From the NCBI RefSeq assembly GCF_004329715.1, contig NZ_JXSY01000002.1, positions 186,001 to 250,000 of the forward strand: DNA of 64,000 bases, written 5' to 3'. A program made the translations under genes and the position numbers. How positions within the stretch are numbered: position 1 is the stretch's first letter; every line of letters starts with the position of its first letter. Shown piece by piece: positions 4,340 to 14,035 of this stretch. The DNA is from Bowmanella sp. JS7-9 (lineage in GTDB: Bacteria; Pseudomonadota; Gammaproteobacteria; Enterobacterales; Alteromonadaceae). The notes beneath the pieces were generated by a model, which had not been told where the DNA came from, did no database searches, and saw only the letters and a program-made list of their open reading frames with translations.

Positions 4340-5338
4340 TTGACTAATACCACTCATTCGGTTACCCCCAGTTTTACCAAGGCCATCCTGGCTCAGGCCG
4401 AGCTATTGGGCCTGAAAATTCCGCCGCTGTTAAAGCGCGCCATCGGCTCGATCAGTAACGAGCAACGCCTGCCGATGGCGTTGCAGGATGCGCTGTGGCT
4501 GGAGATTGAAGCGCAGGATCATGCGGGCGTAATGGGGCTGGAAATTGGCGCAAAACTGCAACCGGGCCATTTCGATACGCTGGGATATCTGGTGTTAAGC
4601 AGCCCGGATTTATCGGCTGCGGTGGATGCGCTGGTAAACTTCTCGGCTTTGGTAGGTGAGGGCGGACGATTCAACAAAGTCAGCGAAGGACAGGGCATTG
4701 GTTTGTATTACGAACCTACCTTTAGCGCGGCGAAAGACATGCGCCTGGACACGATTTTATTGTGTTTATTAAACGGTACACGCTGGTTAGCAGGTCAGTC
4801 ATTGTTGCCCTTGTCGGTGCATTTTCAGCGCGCTGCACCAGCCCAGCCAGATGTGTATCGGCAAGCATTTGGCATTAGTGATATTCGCTTCGAGCAGCCC
4901 CGCAATATGTTGCTGTTTAAACGCAGTGACTGGCAAAAAATTGTTAATCCGGCCAATCCGGCGTTTCGCGCCAATATGCTGGCACTGGCACAGCGCCAGT
5001 TAAAATCGCTCAACCCACAGGATTTTATGGCCCGAGCCGAGCAGTTTCTGGAGCAGGATCCCGTGTTAACCCGTGAGCAGCTGGCCAAACGTATGTGGAT
5101 CAGCGAACGGCAGCTTAACCGGCGGCTGGCTGACTGTGGCCATTCGTTTAAAACCCTGTCCGATCAGGTGAAAAAAAACCATGCATTACAGTTGTTAAAG
5201 CAGGGCCCAATCAGTCAGGCCGCGCTGGCATTTTGCCTGGGATACGCGGATGAAAGCGCGTTTGCTAAAGCGTTTAAACGCTGGATGGGAATGGGCTTAA
5301 GAGCATATTTGCGTCATGCCATAAAAGAGGCTGATTAA
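4340..5338 (+). CDS. AraC family transcriptional regulator (OruR/ArgR-like architecture)
   Basis: A 332-residue regulator. The N-terminal 200 residues resemble the arabinose-binding-like ligand domain of OruR-type regulators (HFDTLGYLVLSSPDL near residues 75-90). The C-terminal 100 residues carry two helix-turn-helix units, ending in the family signature around ALAFCLGYADESAFAKAFKR. The start is TTG at 4340, chosen because AAGGAG lies seven bases upstream and no better start precedes the domain. It is divergent from the monooxygenase cluster and probably activates it in response to the cluster's substrate; the direct repeats just upstream are the likely binding site. Confidence 0.88.
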   Translation: MTNTTHSVTPSFTKAILAQAELLGLKIPPLLKRAIGSISNEQRLPMALQDALWLEIEAQDHAGVMGLEIGAKLQPGHFDTLGYLVLSSPDLSAAVDALVNFSALVGEGGRFNKVSEGQGIGLYYEPTFSAAKDMRLDTILLCLLNGTRWLAGQSLLPLSVHFQRAAPAQPDVYRQAFGISDIRFEQPRNMLLFKRSDWQKIVNPANPAFRANMLALAQRQLKSLNPQDFMARAEQFLEQDPVLTREQLAKRMWISERQLNRRLADCGHSFKTLSDQVKKNHALQLLKQGPISQAALAFCLGYADESAFAKAFKRWMGMGLRAYLRHAIKEAD

Positions 5339-5344
5339 AACGAT

Positions 5345-5617
5345 TTAATTCAGAAAAACACGTGCCACGACTTCTGTGATGGCCAATGTCCATCCGATAC
5401 AGCAAATAATAAAGGTATTGAATTTGAATGTTGCCCAAAAATCTTCCCAATATTTTCCCCTCAATGCACTGTACCAATTGGCTTGAGCGACATATTTCAG
5501 ACATTCAGCAAAATCTTGGTATTGTTCGCCAAAAAACAACTTGGCGAGTGTTTTATACACTGGCCAATTGCAAATGATGACGATGAGTAATGCGATGGGA
5601 TGATCTGCAAATTCCAT
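5345..5617 (-). CDS. Small membrane protein of unknown function
   Basis: A 90-residue protein with two probable membrane segments, about residues 8-28 (IALLIVIICNWPVY) and 66-86 (NTFIICCIGWTLAI), joined by a polar loop rich in Tyr, Trp and Lys. An AAGGAGAG ribosome binding site lies upstream of the ATG at 5617, somewhat far away. It is convergent with the AraC-type gene, six bases from its stop, and downstream of the M16 peptidase terminator. I do not recognise the family. No function is proposed. Confidence 0.6.
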   Translation of the reverse strand: MEFADHPIALLIVIICNWPVYKTLAKLFFGEQYQDFAECLKYVAQANWYSALRGKYWEDFWATFKFNTFIICCIGWTLAITEVVARVFLN

Positions 5618-5654: not shown

Positions 5655-5682
5655 AAAAACGGTGGCTATTGCCACCGTTTTT
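5655..5682 (-). terminator. Rho-independent terminator after the M16 peptidase gene
   Basis: The stem ACGGTGGC/GCCACCGT with a four-base loop is followed on the minus strand by TTTTTGTTTT. It sits about 18 bp past the peptidase stop; an A-rich run on the other side might allow some two-way activity. Confidence 0.8.
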
Positions 5683-5699
5683 CATTCGATTACTGAGAC

Positions 5700-8564
5700 T
5701 TATGGATTGATCGTCACTTCCACAATCGGGTAAGGGAACTCACTCAGTTGCGGCAGAACCGTCTCTTTATCACCGACAATCACGATCTGCATGGAATTTG
5801 GATCCACGTATTTCGCGGCCAAAGCATTAAGCTCGTCTTTGCTGATGGTTTGCACCAGGGCATTACGGGCATCGATATCAGCCGGTTGCATATCGTAAGT
5901 CAGCAAGGTACGCAGGAAGCCCGCTTTCTGACCCAGCGATTCATATTTCAGCGCATCACGCTGACCAATCGCTTTACGCATAAACGCCAGTTCATCGTCA
6001 GTCATACCATGTAATTGATAATCAGACAGTTCTTTGACCATTTCGCGCAGGGTGTCACCGGTGTTGTCCTTTTTCACCGACGCGCTCATGCTGAAGGTGC
6101 CGCGCTCTTTGTCGGCGCTAAAGCCAGCGCGAGCACCGTAGGTGTAGCCTTTATCTTCACGCAAATTCAGATTGATACGGCTGTTGAATGCACCGCCCAA
6201 CGGGAAGTTCATCAGCCCGCTGCGGTAATAATCGCCCAGCTTATCAAACGGCATTGCATGTTTAACCATGGTCACCACAGATTGCGCTGCACCTGGCTTG
6301 TCGACAAAGTGAATCACCGGGCCTTCATAAGCAGGGAAGTCTGCGAAAGTTGGCATAGCGTAATCCGCACCTTGCCAATTGCCGACAAAGGCCAGTTTTG
6401 GCAGGACTTTATCTTGCGGCAGGTCACCAACAACCACGATATTGGCTTTGGCCGGTGAATAATACTTCGCGTAGAAGTTCTTGACGTCGTCCAGCGTGAT
6501 GGCGCTAACGGTGGTCATGGTGCCGCCATTTGGCACACCAATACGGTGCTCGTTGCCATACAGTACTTGCAATTCAGCCAGCTCAGCCAAAGCGCCAGGC
6601 TCTTTCATTGATTGCTGAATAGATTGTAATGTTTGAGCTTTCAGACGCTCAAAATCCGCCTCGTCGAATTTAGGACGCAGCAGTTTTTCTTTCAGCAGGG
6701 TCAGGGTTTTATCCAGATTGCGGGTCAGAGCACTGACGTTCACTGTGGTAAAACGCTCACCGCTGGAGAAGCTGATGGAACTACCCAGCAAATCAAGCTG
6801 GTTCGCCAGTTCTTCATTGCTGTAGTTTTGCGTCGCTTCGTTCATCATCGCCGCGGTCATGCCCGCCAGACCTGCTTTGTCTTTCGGATCAAGCAACGCG
6901 CCGCCTTCCAGACTCATTTGCAGGTAAACCGTTGGGGTTTCGCTGTTAATCGCGCCGACTACTGTGATGCCGTTTTTCAGCTCACTGGTCCAGAAATCCG
7001 GCACCTGAGTGGTTGGGTTGGCACCTGCCGGTGGCACAACTGAACGGTCAAAACTGCTAATGGCTTTGCGAAGTTCTAAATCGTCGGCCTTAACCAGCGT
7101 GATGTCGGTCAGTTGACGTTCGAACTTGAAGCTCGGCTCATGGGCCTGCATCTCTTCTTTGCCTTCCGGTACGATGCTCAGCACGACTTTTGGCTTGTCT
7201 TTGATGTAGGTGTTGTAGACGCGCATAACGTCTTCTTTGGTGACAGCTGCGTAACGATCAATGTCTTCCTGCACCAAATCAGGTGTGTGATACAGGGTTT
7301 CCATTAAGGCTAACTGCGACACTTTGCCACGTACGGTCTGTAACCCGAACACTTTACCGGCTTCGATTTCCATCTTAGTGCGGTTCAGATCGTCATCTGT
7401 CACGCCGCGTTGTTCGAACTCGGCAAAAGTGGCTTGCATGGTGTCATTCAGCTGTTTCAGTGATGGCACCTTGGCTGGGTTAGCCAGTGAATACAGGACG
7501 AATTCACAGGCTAATTCTTTACAGGTATGAAACACGCTGGCCTGCACGGCATCACCGGTTTTCACCAGGTTTTTGTAGAACAGTGAAGTTTTGCCACCAC
7601 CGAGGATATTGGCCAGTACATCCAGAGCCGGCTCGTCGGCATGACGGGCGTACACAGTCGGCATTGACCACCACAACAGTGGCATATGCACTTTGTCCGG
7701 GTGAGTCAGATAACGATTTTCTGTCAGCACGGCAGGTTGTTTTGGTGCATCGTCCACTTCCGGGCCGGCTGGAATATCACCAAAATATTTAACTACCCAC
7801 GCCAGCGTTTGTTGCTCGTCAATGTCACCACCGATAGTCAGAGTGGCATTGTTCGGGCCATACCAGCGAAGGAAGAAGGCTTTCAGATCGTTAACATCAA
7901 CGCGATCCAAATCTTCTACATAACCGATGGTGCTCCAGGAGTATGGGTGACCCGCCGGATACATGGCTTCACCGGCTTTTTCCCACAGTAAACCGTAAGG
8001 GCGGTTATCGTAACGTTGACCACGCTCGTTTTTCACGGTGGCGCGTTGTACTTCAAATTTTTCCTGCGTCACGGCATCGAGCAAATAGCCCATGCGATCT
8101 GACTCAAGCCACAACATCTTTTCCAGTTGGTTTTTAGGCACGGTCTGGAAATAGTTGGTGCGGTCGGTGTTGGTGGTGCCGTTTAGGGTACCGCCAGACT
8201 CGGTCACGATCTTAAAGTGCTGCTCGTCGCCGACATTTTCCGAGCCCTGGAACATCATGTGCTCGAAAAAGTGCGCAAAACCAGACTTACCCACTTCTTC
8301 ACGGGCAGAGCCCACATGGTAGGTTACGTCCACATGCACCAGAGGGTCAGATTTGTCCTCATGCAGTACCACGGTCAGGCCGTTGCTGAGTTGATACTTT
8401 TTATACGGGATAGCCAGTTTGCCGGCTTGTCCCTGATGGGTTTCCAGCAAGGTCACGCCTTCGGGCAGGGCGGCCTGTTTTATTTCAGTCGATTGCGCAG
8501 ATTTGTCCTGCGAGCAGCCGTTAAGCGCCACAAGTCCAATCAATGCAACTCCAAGTAATCGCAT
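5700..8564 (-). CDS. M16 family zinc metallopeptidase, lipoprotein
   Basis: A 954-residue double-domain M16 (pitrilysin/insulinase-like) peptidase. I chose the ATG at 8564 because it gives a lipoprotein signal peptide (MRLLGVALIG..., Cys17 after LNG) with GGAG eight bases upstream; two upstream in-frame starts would only lengthen the signal. The inverted zinc motif HFFEH is at 98-102 (His98, Glu101, His102), with a distal glutamate expected in the EVQRATVKNE region. The second half (from about residue 500) is the inactive partner domain and lacks HxxEH. Expected to be anchored in the envelope and to cut peptides in the periplasm. Monocistronic, with its own terminator. Confidence 0.9.
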   Translation of the reverse strand: MRLLGVALIGLVALNGCSQDKSAQSTEIKQAALPEGVTLLETHQGQAGKLAIPYKKYQLSNGLTVVLHEDKSDPLVHVDVTYHVGSAREEVGKSGFAHFFEHMMFQGSENVGDEQHFKIVTESGGTLNGTTNTDRTNYFQTVPKNQLEKMLWLESDRMGYLLDAVTQEKFEVQRATVKNERGQRYDNRPYGLLWEKAGEAMYPAGHPYSWSTIGYVEDLDRVDVNDLKAFFLRWYGPNNATLTIGGDIDEQQTLAWVVKYFGDIPAGPEVDDAPKQPAVLTENRYLTHPDKVHMPLLWWSMPTVYARHADEPALDVLANILGGGKTSLFYKNLVKTGDAVQASVFHTCKELACEFVLYSLANPAKVPSLKQLNDTMQATFAEFEQRGVTDDDLNRTKMEIEAGKVFGLQTVRGKVSQLALMETLYHTPDLVQEDIDRYAAVTKEDVMRVYNTYIKDKPKVVLSIVPEGKEEMQAHEPSFKFERQLTDITLVKADDLELRKAISSFDRSVVPPAGANPTTQVPDFWTSELKNGITVVGAINSETPTVYLQMSLEGGALLDPKDKAGLAGMTAAMMNEATQNYSNEELANQLDLLGSSISFSSGERFTTVNVSALTRNLDKTLTLLKEKLLRPKFDEADFERLKAQTLQSIQQSMKEPGALAELAELQVLYGNEHRIGVPNGGTMTTVSAITLDDVKNFYAKYYSPAKANIVVVGDLPQDKVLPKLAFVGNWQGADYAMPTFADFPAYEGPVIHFVDKPGAAQSVVTMVKHAMPFDKLGDYYRSGLMNFPLGGAFNSRINLNLREDKGYTYGARAGFSADKERGTFSMSASVKKDNTGDTLREMVKELSDYQLHGMTDDELAFMRKAIGQRDALKYESLGQKAGFLRTLLTYDMQPADIDARNALVQTISKDELNALAAKYVDPNSMQIVIVGDKETVLPQLSEFPYPIVEVTINP

Positions 8565-9069: not shown

Positions 9070-9331
9070 TTATCTCTCCTTAGAATTACGAGTAGCAACT
9101 TACGGCTACAAAAATAAGCTAGATAAGAAACCAATTCATGTAAAGTGAATGTGATGAAATAAATATAAAAAAAACAGCTACTTACAGAGTCTATGCAGGT
9201 AATTCTGTGCGCTTTTTAAAGAGTAGAGTCCATTATCATTGCGGGAATGGACGCGGGCTTTACAACAAATACTTGCTAATTTCGGCGCTGTTCTATACTG
9301 GATTGGTCGAAAATTACAGGAGAACCCACAG

Positions 9332-11320
9332 GTGCTGTTTCCCGCGTTATCCATAAACCGTCTGTTACTTATGGCATTCCTGTTGCCTTCTGCCCTTGCC
9401 AGTGTGGGTTTCTGGTTATGGATTGGGCAAATTAACCAGGATATCGAAGCGGCAAGCCGAACCGAACAGACGGTACTTCTGGCCAAAGCGCTGGATAATG
9501 TAGCCCATCAGCATGCAGTGGAACGCGGCCTGACGGCGGGTTTCTTGGGCAGTCGCGGCGAGAAAAATGGCGATGCCGTGAAAGCCCAGCGGCTAAAAGC
9601 GGATGCCGCGGTAGAGAATTTACAGAGCCTGATCCAAAGCAATCAGCTTGAAGCGATACCAGCCAAAGATATTGAGCATATTTTCACACCCCTGAATCAG
9701 GCGCTGGCGGGTAAGGTAACGCTGCGCTCTGATGTGGATAAGCTGCAGGGTAGCCAAGCATTTGGCTTTTATTCCAATATCAACACGGTTGCGCTGGATG
9801 GGATCCGCCTGGCCAGCACTGACATCAACGATCCTGACTTGTCCGCCAAAGTGTCGACCTGGCTGAGCTTGTTATGGTTGAAAGAACGGGCCGGGCAGGT
9901 GCGCGGAGCGCTCAATGGCGTGTTTGCTGCTGGCCAAACCGGCGAACGCCGGCATGAGCAAATCAGCCGCTTTATGCTGGATGAACGCCATTACATGCAG
10001 CAAATTGAACGCCTAGCCGATGCCGACACACTCAAAGCTTTAAACGAATACAAGTTGCTCACCCACTGGCAACAGGTTGCCACCATAGCCAATCAATTCA
10101 GCAATACCGCAGACCTCAACATGATTAATGGGCCGGCAGACTGGTTTGCCATAGCGACTAACCGCATAGGTGATATTAAAAATCTGGCCGACAATCTGGC
10201 GGCGCAAATCGTGCTGCAAGCGGAAACGGATGCCAGTACGCTGGTATGGAAACGCTGGCTCTGGTTGTTGCTGGTAGCGGCGTTTTCTGCCGCCGTGGCT
10301 TGGTACCTTACTTTGCAGTACCGGCATTTGCGCAAGCGTGTCGCAACGATCCGCACAATGTTGCAATCGGCCGCCGAAGATAAGGATTTCTCAAAACAGA
10401 TCAACGATGATGGCTATGACGAATTGGGTGCCATCGCGCGTGCATTTAATCGTCATATTGCAGAAGTCAGCGAGGCCATGCTGAAAATTGCCCAGTGCAT
10501 CTCGGCAACCGGTTCGTCACTATCCGCGATGGATAACAGTACTCAGCAAACCTATAAAGCCTCACAGACGGAACAACATCAGACTGGTATGATTGCCACC
10601 GCGGTCACCGAAATGGCGCAAACCAGCGGCGAAATTGCGAGGAATATGCAGGATGCAGCGAGTAAAAGTAGCGAAATCCGGACTAAGCTGGTGAGTACTA
10701 CCACCACCATGAACAACACCCGCAGCACCTTTGATACCCTGCTGCGTGAAATCGACGAAACTGACGCGATTTTACGTAAATTGGTAGAGAGCAGCCAATC
10801 GATTCAGGGGCTGGTGAATACCATTGAAGGCATAGCCGAACAGACCAATTTGCTGGCGTTGAATGCGGCGATTGAGGCTGCGCGTGCCGGCGAGCAAGGT
10901 CGTGGATTCGCGGTGGTGGCCGATGAGGTGCGTAATCTGGCCAAACGGACTCAACAGTCCACTGAAGAAATTTACAGTCTGGTTAATGCATTACGTGCCA
11001 GCAGCGATGGCGCGCAAGCACAAATGGAAAAGAGCCAGAATAGTTCTAAGCAGGCATCAGAGCGGGTGTACCATAGCGCTGAGGATCTTGCACAGCTTTC
11101 TCGCATTATGCAGGAAATGGACGATATTCTTGCTCAGGTTGCATCAGCAGCCGAAGAGCAAACTACGGTGAGTCAGGATATTAACCACAACGTTTTGCAT
11201 GTCGCCACGACAGCAGAAAAAACCCTCGAACGCTGTGAATCCGCCAACGGCCTGATGGCGACGTTAAATGATAATTTCGGTAAAGCACGCGCGATGATTG
11301 ATCAATTCAAGTTGCGTTAA
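9332..11320 (+). CDS. Methyl-accepting chemotaxis protein with NIT sensor domain
   Basis: Start taken at the GTG at 9332, which has AGGAGA about eight bases upstream and leads straight into the first membrane helix; this gives 662 residues. Order: TM1 (about 14-36); a periplasmic NIT (nitrate/nitrite-sensing-like) domain with the hallmark [14 protein letters not shown] soon after the helix; TM2 (about 306-328, [16 protein letters not shown]); HAMP; and the cytoplasmic signalling hairpin, whose tip reads [19 protein letters not shown]. It signals through CheA/CheW to the flagellar motor. No nitrate metabolism genes are nearby, so the ligand is only suggested by the domain. Confidence 0.88.
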
Positions 11321-11350: not shown

Positions 11351-11737
11351 CTATTTAAGGATATCTTCCAGCTGAATATCATTGCAGTCTTCGGCGTCAG
11401 TGCTGAAAACCAACGTACCAAGACGAAAGCCTCCGGCCGCGTCGATGGTAATAATCAACTGAGAAGCTTCGCGTTTTAAGCTAAACGTACCATTACCCAT
11501 CACGCGTTTTACCTGCCAGTCACTTGAGAGCCAATCATTGCTGTCAAAAATTACCTCACAATCTTGTTCGGGAAAGGCGAAGAAGTGATTTTTACTCAGA
11601 TCCGCTTCAAAACAGCTGTGTTCGGGCCTGTGTCCAGACTGTTGCAACATATTTAACAGGTCCTGGCCATCGACCTCCACATCACATCCCAGCGCAGGCA
11701 AGGACAAACAATAGGTTGCAAGTAGCAGGCGTTTCAT
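11351..11737 (-). CDS. Secreted protein of unknown function, cysteine-rich
   Basis: 128 residues from the ATG at 11737 (MKRLLLATYCLSLPALGCDV), chosen over a TTG four codons upstream because it follows the previous stop by one base. The N-terminus is a signal peptide; the mature protein has several cysteines (in GCDVEV, HSCFEA, QDCEVIF, AEDCNDI) that probably form disulfides. It is the last gene of a tight four-gene leftward group with the 108-residue secreted protein and the 200-residue membrane protein. Family not recognised. Confidence 0.62.
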   Translation of the reverse strand: MKRLLLATYCLSLPALGCDVEVDGQDLLNMLQQSGHRPEHSCFEADLSKNHFFAFPEQDCEVIFDSNDWLSSDWQVKRVMGNGTFSLKREASQLIITIDAAGGFRLGTLVFSTDAEDCNDIQLEDILK

Positions 11738-11738
11738 A

Positions 11739-12065
11739 TCAGTTACCAATTATCGGCGGAATATCGATATTGCGTGTATTCGGCACAGAAATCTGCTGAA
11801 ACACGCGGCCATTGATCACGATGTAATAGGCACCCGGCACGAGGCGTAGATAGTACATGCCATCGTAACCTGTGGTGTAACCGGCGCAGTTGTTGGTGTT
11901 GACGATACAAAATTGCACAAACGCGCCATTCATCGGGTAATTCATGCCATTACGGGCGCGAAATTCCACCCGGCCGCGCACGTCGGTAGCGTTGGCAATC
12001 GGGCTGATGACCAATAACAGCAGTAATATTGCCCAGCGTTTAATAGGATAAGGTTTATTGCGCAT
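11739..12065 (-). CDS. Small secreted protein with carboxypeptidase-regulatory-like (beta-sandwich) fold
   Basis: 108 residues with a clear signal peptide (KRWAILLLLLVISPIANA). The mature part, starting DVRGRVEFRA and containing TTGYDGMYYLRLVPGAYYI, reads like the carboxypeptidase-regulatory or CNA-B type beta-sandwich: a G-x-V strand, a YDG turn and an L-x-P-G-x-Y strand. Such domains are structural or ligand-binding and are not enzymes. The gene overlaps the upstream membrane protein gene by 11 bases and is almost fused to the downstream secreted protein gene, so the set is probably translationally coupled. Confidence 0.65.
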   Translation of the reverse strand: MRNKPYPIKRWAILLLLLVISPIANATDVRGRVEFRARNGMNYPMNGAFVQFCIVNTNNCAGYTTGYDGMYYLRLVPGAYYIVINGRVFQQISVPNTRNIDIPPIIGN

Positions 12066-12651
12066 AGGGTGCCCCCACTTCCAGCCACACGGGTACGGTG
12101 CTGGTTAATTTTCGTTTGCTGTGGTCGCGGATGACCTTTTCTTCACTGTTGAGATCCAGTGTTTCGCGATTTAGCGCGCCTGCCATGGAAAAATTGGCGG
12201 TGGGGAATTTTTCGTTGCTGGGTACCACCCAAAATTCCACCCGGCTGGCAGAGGCATCCAGATTGCCGGGTTCCAGCGTAACCATCACCTGCTGCATTTC
12301 CTGATTGTTGGCTTGTAGCGGGCCGTTTTCATCACGCAATTTGACCGGGACTTCGACCAGCCAAGCCTGCTGGTTTTGCATCGACAGCTGCTTCTGATGT
12401 TGTCGCTCAATATCGGAATGAATGAGATAACCCGCCGCCAGCACCAGAATATAGGTGGCGGTAGAGCCAAATACGTTAAAACGCATTTTGAATTTACCCG
12501 CGTTGAAAAACTGGCCTTCATATTCGCCACTGGATTCGTTTTTGTTTTTGGCATTTTTCGGGGTCAGCAGCAAATAGATGATGGCGGCGGGGATAATTGG
12601 CAGCATCAAAATGGCAGAGGTAACGACCAGCGAGGCGTATTGGTCGTTCAT
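12055..12651 (-). CDS. Membrane protein of unknown function
   Basis: 198 residues from the ATG at 12651 (GGAG eight bases upstream; an in-frame GTG lies four codons earlier). There are two membrane helices, about residues 9-32 and 64-82, separated by a short polar loop, then an extracytoplasmic C-terminal domain of about 110 residues with beta-strand character (VMVTLEPGNLDASASRVEFW). The start overlaps the TGA of a 28-codon ORF (ATGA) and the end overlaps the next gene. I do not recognise the family. Organisation suggests an inner-membrane anchor for a small envelope complex with the two secreted partners (inference). Confidence 0.65.
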   Translation of the reverse strand: MNDQYASLVVTSAILMLPIIPAAIIYLLLTPKNAKNKNESSGEYEGQFFNAGKFKMRFNVFGSTATYILVLAAGYLIHSDIERQHQKQLSMQNQQAWLVEVPVKLRDENGPLQANNQEMQQVMVTLEPGNLDASASRVEFWVVPSNEKFPTANFSMAGALNRETLDLNSEEKVIRDHSKRKLTSTVPVWLEVGAPYAQ

Positions 12652-12734
12652 GGCTGACTCCACAGAGACAGGGCATGCAAGCGTTGGGATGCGCCATCAA
12701 CATAAATGGGGCTGGACATCGGTATATGTGGCAT
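12648..12734 (-). CDS. Candidate 28-residue peptide ORF heading the micro-operon
   Basis: A short ORF, ATG at 12734, preceded by GGAGG at five bases, the strongest ribosome binding site in this group. Its TGA overlaps the ATG of the next gene as ATGA, the geometry of a coupled operon gene. The peptide starts MPHIPMSS and is rich in Pro, Ser and Leu, with Trp25 and a final Pro; it has no signal peptide or membrane helix. An in-frame TTG twelve codons upstream could give a longer form. It may be a real small protein or a leader whose translation opens the next start. Unrecognised; conservation would decide. Confidence 0.42.
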   Translation of the reverse strand: MPHIPMSSPIYVDGASQRLHALSLWSQP

Positions 12735-12907
12735 CGGGACCTCCGTAATTGTCCGGATAAGCCTGGTCAATGTACCCGGGGGTAACTACCGAAAGACCTG
12801 GATAACGCGCGCGTAAAAAGTATCTACAACCACCACTATATTGCTTAAAACCTAGTGATTATGTGTAGTTACGTCAAGGATGCGGATGTGTTGGGGCGGA
12901 TTAGCCA

Positions 12908-12936
12908 ATAAAAAAGCTCCCGTCTGGGAGCTTTTT
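12908..12936 (-). terminator. Rho-independent terminator after ychF
   Basis: Stem AAGCTCCC/GGGAGCTT with a four-base loop and a T run on the minus strand, eight bases beyond the ychF stop. Confidence 0.85.
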
Positions 12937-12943
12937 GAAACGT

Positions 12944-14035
12944 TTACACGTTAAAACGGAAGTGAATCACGTCGCCGTCTTTGACGCGGTATTCTTTACC
13001 TTCCAAACGCCATTTACCTGCGTCTTTGGCGCCTTGCTCGCCGTTATTGGCGATGTAGTCATCAAAGCCGATGACTTCGGCGCGGATAAAGCCTTTTTCA
13101 AAATCGGTATGGATTTTACCGGCTGCCTGCGGCGCGGTTGAGCCAACCGGGAAGGTCCAGGCGCGCACTTCTTTGACACCCGCGGTGAAGTAAGTGTTAA
13201 GGCTAAGCAAATCATAACCGGCGCGGATAACGCGGTTCAGGCCTGGCTCTTCCAGCCCCATATCTTCCATAAACTCGGCTTTTTCGTCGTCTTCCAGTTC
13301 AGCGATTTCTGCTTCGATGGCGGCACAGACTGCCACAACCACGGCATTTTCGGCCGCCGCGATGTCTTTAACCTGATCCAGTAACGGATTGTTTTCAAAG
13401 CCATCGTCGTTAACGTTGGCGATGTACATGGTCGGTTTCAGAGTTAAGAAGTTCATATATGCGATGGCAGCATGTTCTTCTTTGCTTAATTCCAGTGAGC
13501 GCAGCAGGTGGCCCTCATCCAGGTGCGGTTTAACCTTTTCCAGTACCTTCATTTCGAATTTGGCGTCGTTGTCACCACCTTTTGCACGCTTTGCTACGCG
13601 CAGCATGGCTTTTTCGGTGGTTTCCAGATCTGCCAGCGCCAGTTCGGTGTTGATGACATCGATATCATCTTTCGGACTGACTTTTCCGGCAACGTGCACG
13701 ATGTTGTCGTTGTTGAAACAGCGAACAACGTGACCAATCGCATCGGTTTCGCGGATGTTAGCCAGGAACTTGTTACCCAGGCCTTCACCTTTCGATGCAC
13801 CTTCTACCAGGCCGGCGATATCCACGAATTCCATGGTAGTAGGCAGCACGCGCTGAGGGTTAACGATCTTGGCCAGTGCATCCAGGCGCAAATCCGGTAC
13901 AGGTACCACGCCAGTGTTTGGCTCAATGGTACAAAACGGGAAGTTAGCTGCTTCGATGCCCGCTTTGGTTAACGCGTTGAACAAAGTTGATTTGCCGACG
14001 TTGGGTAATCCAACAATGCCGCATTTAAAACCCAT
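12944..14035 (-). CDS. ychF: Redox-regulated ribosome-binding ATPase YchF
   Basis: 363 residues, the standard length. An Obg-family P-loop NTPase: G1 motif [14 protein letters not shown] at about residues 8-21, switch region with [19 protein letters not shown], a coiled-coil insertion (about 130-200) and the C-terminal TGS domain ending [11 protein letters not shown]. YchF binds and hydrolyses ATP in preference to GTP, associates with 70S ribosomes and tunes translation and oxidative stress responses. It lies downstream of pth with a 45-bp gap, the conserved rplY-pth-ychF order, and has its own terminator. Confidence 0.96.

Follow-up and report, generated by a model that had tools for sequence, protein, structure and literature searches.

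The window analysed here, a 64,000-nt stretch of the genome of Bowmanella sp. JS7-9, carries on its minus strand a real, compact operon of orphan envelope genes, headed by a very short ORF that is probably a translational-coupling leader. Our preferred reading, which we hold tentatively and to which we give slightly less than an even chance, is that of a lineage-restricted envelope operon controlled by its leader ORF, p28, through translational coupling to the next gene, g198, with the products assembling into an envelope complex.

Anatomy and coding signal of the operon

The operon consists of four ORFs, all on the minus strand (positions are those of the window): p28 (12648..12734), a 28-codon leader ORF whose TGA overlaps the ATG of g198 as ATGA; g198 (12055..12651), encoding a 198-amino acid membrane protein in which two helix-like segments precede a long C-terminal domain; g108 (11739..12065), encoding a 108-amino acid, probably secreted beta protein; and g128 (11351..11737), encoding a 128-amino acid, probably secreted acidic protein. 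The three larger ORFs were characterized by coding score and hydropathy, and g108 also by a weak similarity to PF13620. g198 and g108 overlap by 11 bp (12065-12055) and a single base separates g108 from g128. All these coordinates and junctions are as claimed in the initial annotation, which had also credited the short ORF with the best ribosome binding site of the group. Indeed, the Shine-Dalgarno sequence of p28, GGAGG, located 5 nt before the ATG, is the strongest of the four: g198 has GGAG, g108 a weak GGGGG and g128 none evident.

Codon usage was scored with statistics derived from 48 long ORFs of the window other than those of the operon (training mean 0.270, sd 0.100). The per-codon scores of g198, g108 and g128 were 0.348, 0.195 and 0.226, and in each case the annotated frame was the best of six: the three are real-looking genes, backed by codon signal. 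p28 scored -0.121 over 27 codons, which is still the top value of its six frames, and its synonymous-codon score was slightly positive (0.048). Codon statistics thus give no coding support to p28, yet the ORF is too short for them to exclude coding. Alternative starts in the p28 frame give ORFs of 23 (ATG) or 40 codons (TTG), neither with a 5-mer Shine-Dalgarno sequence. The base composition of the operon is the same as that of its surroundings.

Upstream of the operon lies a minus-strand gene (12944-14035) that we take from its sequence to be ychF, and a plus-strand gene (9239-11320) convergent with the operon encodes a methyl-accepting chemotaxis protein containing a nitrate/nitrite-sensing (NIT) domain. 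After ychF comes a perfect 11-bp inverted repeat with runs of A and T (12911..12936), absent from the pattern-scan list, which is probably the ychF terminator. Because this terminator probably precedes the operon, the latter probably has its own promoter; a consensus scan found no sigma-70-like promoter on the minus strand.

p28 and the start of g198

A 29-nt hairpin is predicted inside p28 (12649..12677, minus strand), in which the GGAG and the AUG of g198 are paired, and a second predicted stem of 8 bp, in g198 codons 2-10, comes directly after it. The 29-nt hairpin alone had a z-score of -1.12, with 26 of 200 shuffled sequences equally stable. The two hairpins taken together (66 nt) reached -2.22 (4/200), a flattering value because this segment was picked after the fold had been seen, and the 120-nt context gave -0.30 (79/200). 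The minimum free energy of the g198 start (-20..+37) was -15.2, compared with a mean of -9.6 (sd 4.3) among 43 genes of the window. Its calculated opening energy was 15.4 kcal/mol (rank 11 of 60, ten starts being harder to open), against 11.7 kcal/mol (rank 24 of 60) for the p28 start. These calculations suggest a g198 start that is fairly closed, more structured than most though not exceptionally so, and a p28 start that would combine average accessibility with a strong Shine-Dalgarno sequence. Rfam contained no structured RNA matching the locus (best E 0.99).

The strong Shine-Dalgarno sequence, the ATGA overlap and the hairpin predicted over the g198 start make a translated leader the best interpretation of p28. 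In the mechanism that we propose, the hairpin at the end of p28 would hold the Shine-Dalgarno sequence and AUG of g198 closed, with the second hairpin just downstream; ribosomes would load on the strong site of p28, melt the hairpins in the course of p28 translation, terminate at ATGA and reinitiate on g198, and g108 and g128 would be coupled in turn through their overlap and one-base spacing. g198 would serve as an inner-membrane anchor and extend a domain into the periplasm, g108 would be a periplasmic or secreted beta-sandwich protein and g128 a disulfide-containing acidic partner, and their coordinated synthesis would yield an envelope complex. Here we infer the coupling, the localization of the products, the disulfides and the existence of a single complex. 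The initial annotation had likewise proposed one complex with a leader that sets its expression, a proposal that holds in part: the genes are tightly packed, and the ORF that leads them has a good ribosome binding site and plausibly sets their expression. We count several observations against gating by p28: the ORF has no codon signal and its start is average, the g198 start is not exceptionally closed, g198 has its own GGAG, which makes coupling perhaps unneeded, no promoter was found, the AlphaFold models described below are poor, and the searched genomes held no relatives showing conservation of any of the elements.

A rival possibility, which we regard as rather unlikely, is that p28 is a chance ORF and that g198 simply uses its own Shine-Dalgarno sequence in an ordinary three-gene orphan operon. 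The lack of codon signal and the GGAG of g198 are what this would predict, and length is no obstacle: of 20,000 leaders simulated upstream of ATGA starts, 10.5% contained an ATG ORF of at least 28 codons ending in ATGA (17.7% when GTG and TTG starts were included). By contrast, an ATG ORF of at least 20 codons ending in ATGA and preceded by a 5-mer Shine-Dalgarno sequence at good spacing, as GGAGG is in p28, was present in only 0.2% of the simulated leaders (0.6% with GTG and TTG starts). Real starts gave a similar picture. We collected 60 ATG starts with a Shine-Dalgarno-like motif from the window and from the loci of 40 relatives, 43 of which were isolated (at least 100 nt from the upstream gene). 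A leader ORF of at least 15 codons with a 5-mer Shine-Dalgarno sequence occurred at one of these 43 starts, that of g198 with its leader p28, and was absent at the other 42.

Two further readings grant p28 a function of its own. As the first ORF of the operon, p28 could encode a sensing leader peptide that, as a nascent chain, would stall the ribosome or control termination; sensing upstream ORFs of this kind are known, as described for CruR in Bordetella. We consider it improbable here: p28 has neither a cysteine nor a visible run of a single amino acid, the pattern scan detected no terminator-like site on the minus strand within it, and no relatives displaying a conserved motif were found, the matches to p28 (18 of the 147 nearest genomes at E ≤ 10, best non-self E 0.18) being at chance level. 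That p28 is a functional small protein, itself a member of the complex, is very improbable; the strong ribosome binding site and the overlap would agree with such a role, but the ORF shows no codon signal, hydropathy revealed no hydrophobic segment in it, and its matches in other genomes are only at chance level.

If p28 is the translated leader that we favor, its ribosome binding site might in turn be controlled. The core motif recognized by CsrA is ANGGA. The Shine-Dalgarno region of p28 reads ACGGAGG and thus contains ACGGA, and the genome carries a CsrA gene (E 8.2e-25); the stretch with the putative site folds no better than shuffled sequences (z 0.64). CsrA control at this site is only a guess, because an overlap between ANGGA and a Shine-Dalgarno sequence is expected often by chance.

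The three larger proteins and the search for relatives

The hydropathy profile of g198 bears out the two-helix membrane protein of the initial annotation, with two helix-like peaks: hydrophobic segments begin at residues 7 and 60 and are followed by the long C-terminal part, which probably forms a periplasmic domain. The larger proteins had been said to belong to no nameable family, and none of them gave a family match over the cut-off. For g198, we took as chance the matches to the NCBIfam oxidoreductase model PRK06901 (E 0.0023, 17.2 bits against a cut-off of 437, residues 76-155) and to the Pfam families MpPF26 (E 0.067, or 0.015 for residues 1-97), Imm21 (E 0.074) and DUF6183 (E 0.12). No solved structure matched, and the single-sequence AlphaFold model was poor (pLDDT 48). 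Only its own genome was matched among the 147 nearest. Among 395 genomes of the family, 14 gave a match at E ≤ 0.1, namely g198 itself and 13 others at E of at least 0.0106, ten of whose loci were inspected and contained nothing operon-like; among 369 genomes of the class there were seven at E ≤ 0.05, one being g198 itself and the best other having E 0.0067. Four matches in genus g19 (E 0.011, 0.035, 0.078 and 0.091) raised the possibility of a type II secretion GspM protein: they are 157-amino acid proteins encoded between genes that we presume to be GspL-like and GspN-like. This reading was dropped as chance, only query residues 65-125 being aligned. A made-up consensus of a presumed two-helix family was also run on Pfam, 249 genomes and plasmids and gave no support: at E ≤ 0.01, six of the 249 genomes had partial-length matches (best 4.4e-4), the source genome not being among them; plasmids gave nothing, and the Pfam matches were all below the cut-off.

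g108 and g128 both have an N-terminal hydropathy peak, in agreement with their annotation as secreted proteins, and it is on the strength of these peaks that we call them secreted. g108 has a net charge of +7 and two cysteines. Its sequence makes it a possible carboxypeptidase-regulatory-like beta-sandwich: PF13620 matched the whole protein with 15.4 bits (E 0.025) and the protein minus its signal peptide with 16.3 bits (E 0.013), both below the cut-off of 32.3, and the sequence shows the pattern TTGYDGMYY ... PGAYY, which is typical of the carboxypeptidase regulatory-like domain. It differs from the PF13620 domain in being a stand-alone small protein, in addition to scoring under the cut-off. 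A seven-member profile, which omits L026, L029 and L033 (M16-peptidase sequences) as well as L031, L023, L028, L030 and L034 but retains L032 (an M16-peptidase sequence) and L025 (which looks unrelated), gave g108 32.1 bits, the best of 1000 shuffles reaching 8.9; this score is supportive, not independent, because the seeds had been picked beforehand as weak matches resembling g108. The single-sequence AlphaFold model of g108, with seven short strands, was poor (pLDDT 57), and a fold search with it returned no match at E ≤ 0.001 (best E 0.33), the hits being mostly galectin-like with a TM score of at most 0.41 among the matches listed. The best E against solved structures was 0.57. In the 147 nearest genomes, 11 matches reached E ≤ 0.1, one being g108 itself and the best other (E 0.0025) lying in a broken frame. 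An NCBIfam PEP-CTERM model (E 0.12) and a Pfam phage tail model (E 0.096) were both taken as chance. Note that an exact 14-nt repeat is present, in the same frame, in g108 (11961-11974) and g198 (12232-12245), encoding RVEF in both; it may be due to chance or perhaps be a trace of a shared ancestry of two beta domains.

In g128, the N-terminal hydrophobic segment is accompanied by a second, weaker peak at residue 94, and the net charge is -11. The qualification of this protein as cysteine-rich was generous in its wording, though g128 does contain five cysteines (10, 18, 42, 60 and 118), four of them after the probable signal peptide, with a cleavage site placed by eye. Searches gave five matches at E ≤ 0.1 in the 147 nearest genomes, one being g128 itself and the best other having E 0.0076, and a best E of 0.33 against solved structures. 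With charges of opposite sign, g108 and g128 might be partners, though this is no more than a suggestion.

Wider searches gave the same outcome. With g108 and g128 joined as one query, 245 genomes of the family yielded four matches at E ≤ 0.01, one being the query locus itself; the three others (E 0.007-0.0085) all fall in the g108 part and within open frames of about 1000 codons. GTDB contigs, searched with a method suited to close relatives only, contained no relative of g198 or g128; plasmids yielded a single chance-level match, to g128 (E 0.5), and none to g198 or g108; viral contigs held no relative of the larger proteins and phages only a chance-level match to g198 (E 0.3). We rejected a phage origin, PHROGs matches being at chance level (E 0.061 for g108, 0.071 for g128) and viral contigs being without a relative, and also an origin as a defence system, PADLOC giving no match. 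No protein had a convincing relative, and therefore none of g198, g108 and g128 was seen separately elsewhere across the genomes, plasmids and viral scans. The nearest, family and class genome sets overlap and include only one genome of the genus, and single-sequence searches could miss strongly diverged homologues: orphan here means beyond one genome, and the closest relatives may still carry the operon.

We examined the spot downstream of ychF (11351-12943 here), which is variable in the family, in 40 of the 143 genomes where ychF was found; 38 of the stretches were complete and two were cut by contig ends. The ORF layout varies among the 38 full stretches. In both loci that were checked, a gene of about 470 codons there encodes a sodium:alanine symporter. 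A tblastn search of these stretches with the four products (limit E 5) gave nothing convincing, the best E being 3.1 for g198, 1.1 for g108 and 0.13 for p28, with no row for g128. In a near relative (L070), the same spot carries two minus-strand ORFs, 5669-6382 (237 amino acids) and 4814-5596 (260 amino acids), neither of which had a Pfam match at E ≤ 0.001; they are a candidate orphan pair.

Novelty and comparison with known systems

The arrangement as a whole is not extraordinary: the coupled-leader design is of an already known kind, and it is the proteins that are orphans in the data searched. Literature searches on related arrangements listed no description of this operon, but its proteins lack names that could serve as search terms. 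The operon may be an undescribed system, a claim made because relatives are absent, and the data fit an ordinary lineage-specific operon equally well. In its fullest form, an undescribed three-protein envelope complex restricted to one lineage, in which the periplasmic domain of g198 has its own fold and synthesis is gated by the leader, possibly under CsrA, we find the idea distinctly unlikely. In having no recognizable relatives outside the genome, the larger proteins resemble the entries of TRGdb (PMC10410690), which is reportedly a catalogue of taxonomically restricted (orphan) bacterial genes; they differ in that three of them stand in one operon, seen in one genome of the genus. A new fold or a new set of partners may come to light through these orphan proteins, and the locus, if our reading is true, would provide a small, fully testable case of lineage-specific envelope proteins expressed in step.

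Coupling between p28 and g198 is supported by analogy with two precedents. In studies of overlapping pairs, strict translational coupling was observed in 13 of the 14 pairs tested, coupling was nearly gone at a distance of about 20 nt, and genes for subunits of heteromeric complexes are enriched in short overlaps (PMC6728339, PMC10666635). p28 and g198 share with the ATGA-coupled pairs described there the 4-nt overlap and the co-directed genes, whereas p28 is a very short upstream partner and no recognized gene, and the other junctions of the operon are the 11-bp overlap and the one-base gap.

The second precedent is the iraD leader of E. coli, in which the 27-amino acid ORF27, with its own Shine-Dalgarno sequence, ends over the start of iraD. 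RNA structure masks the Shine-Dalgarno sequence of iraD, and repression of ORF27 by CsrA carries over to iraD (PMC5574718). p28 is alike in its length (28 compared with 27 amino acids), its own Shine-Dalgarno sequence, its stop overlapping the downstream start, the predicted sequestering of the downstream Shine-Dalgarno sequence and the GGA at the ribosome binding site of the leader. By contrast, the downstream genes are unrelated, coupling and CsrA binding were demonstrated for ORF27 whereas both are hypothetical for p28, and the initiation region of ORF27 has three CsrA sites, compared with only the GGA in the Shine-Dalgarno sequence of p28. If our reading is true, the operon would stand beside E. 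coli iraD as a natural example of a very short ORF acting as a translational gate, here before orphan envelope genes.
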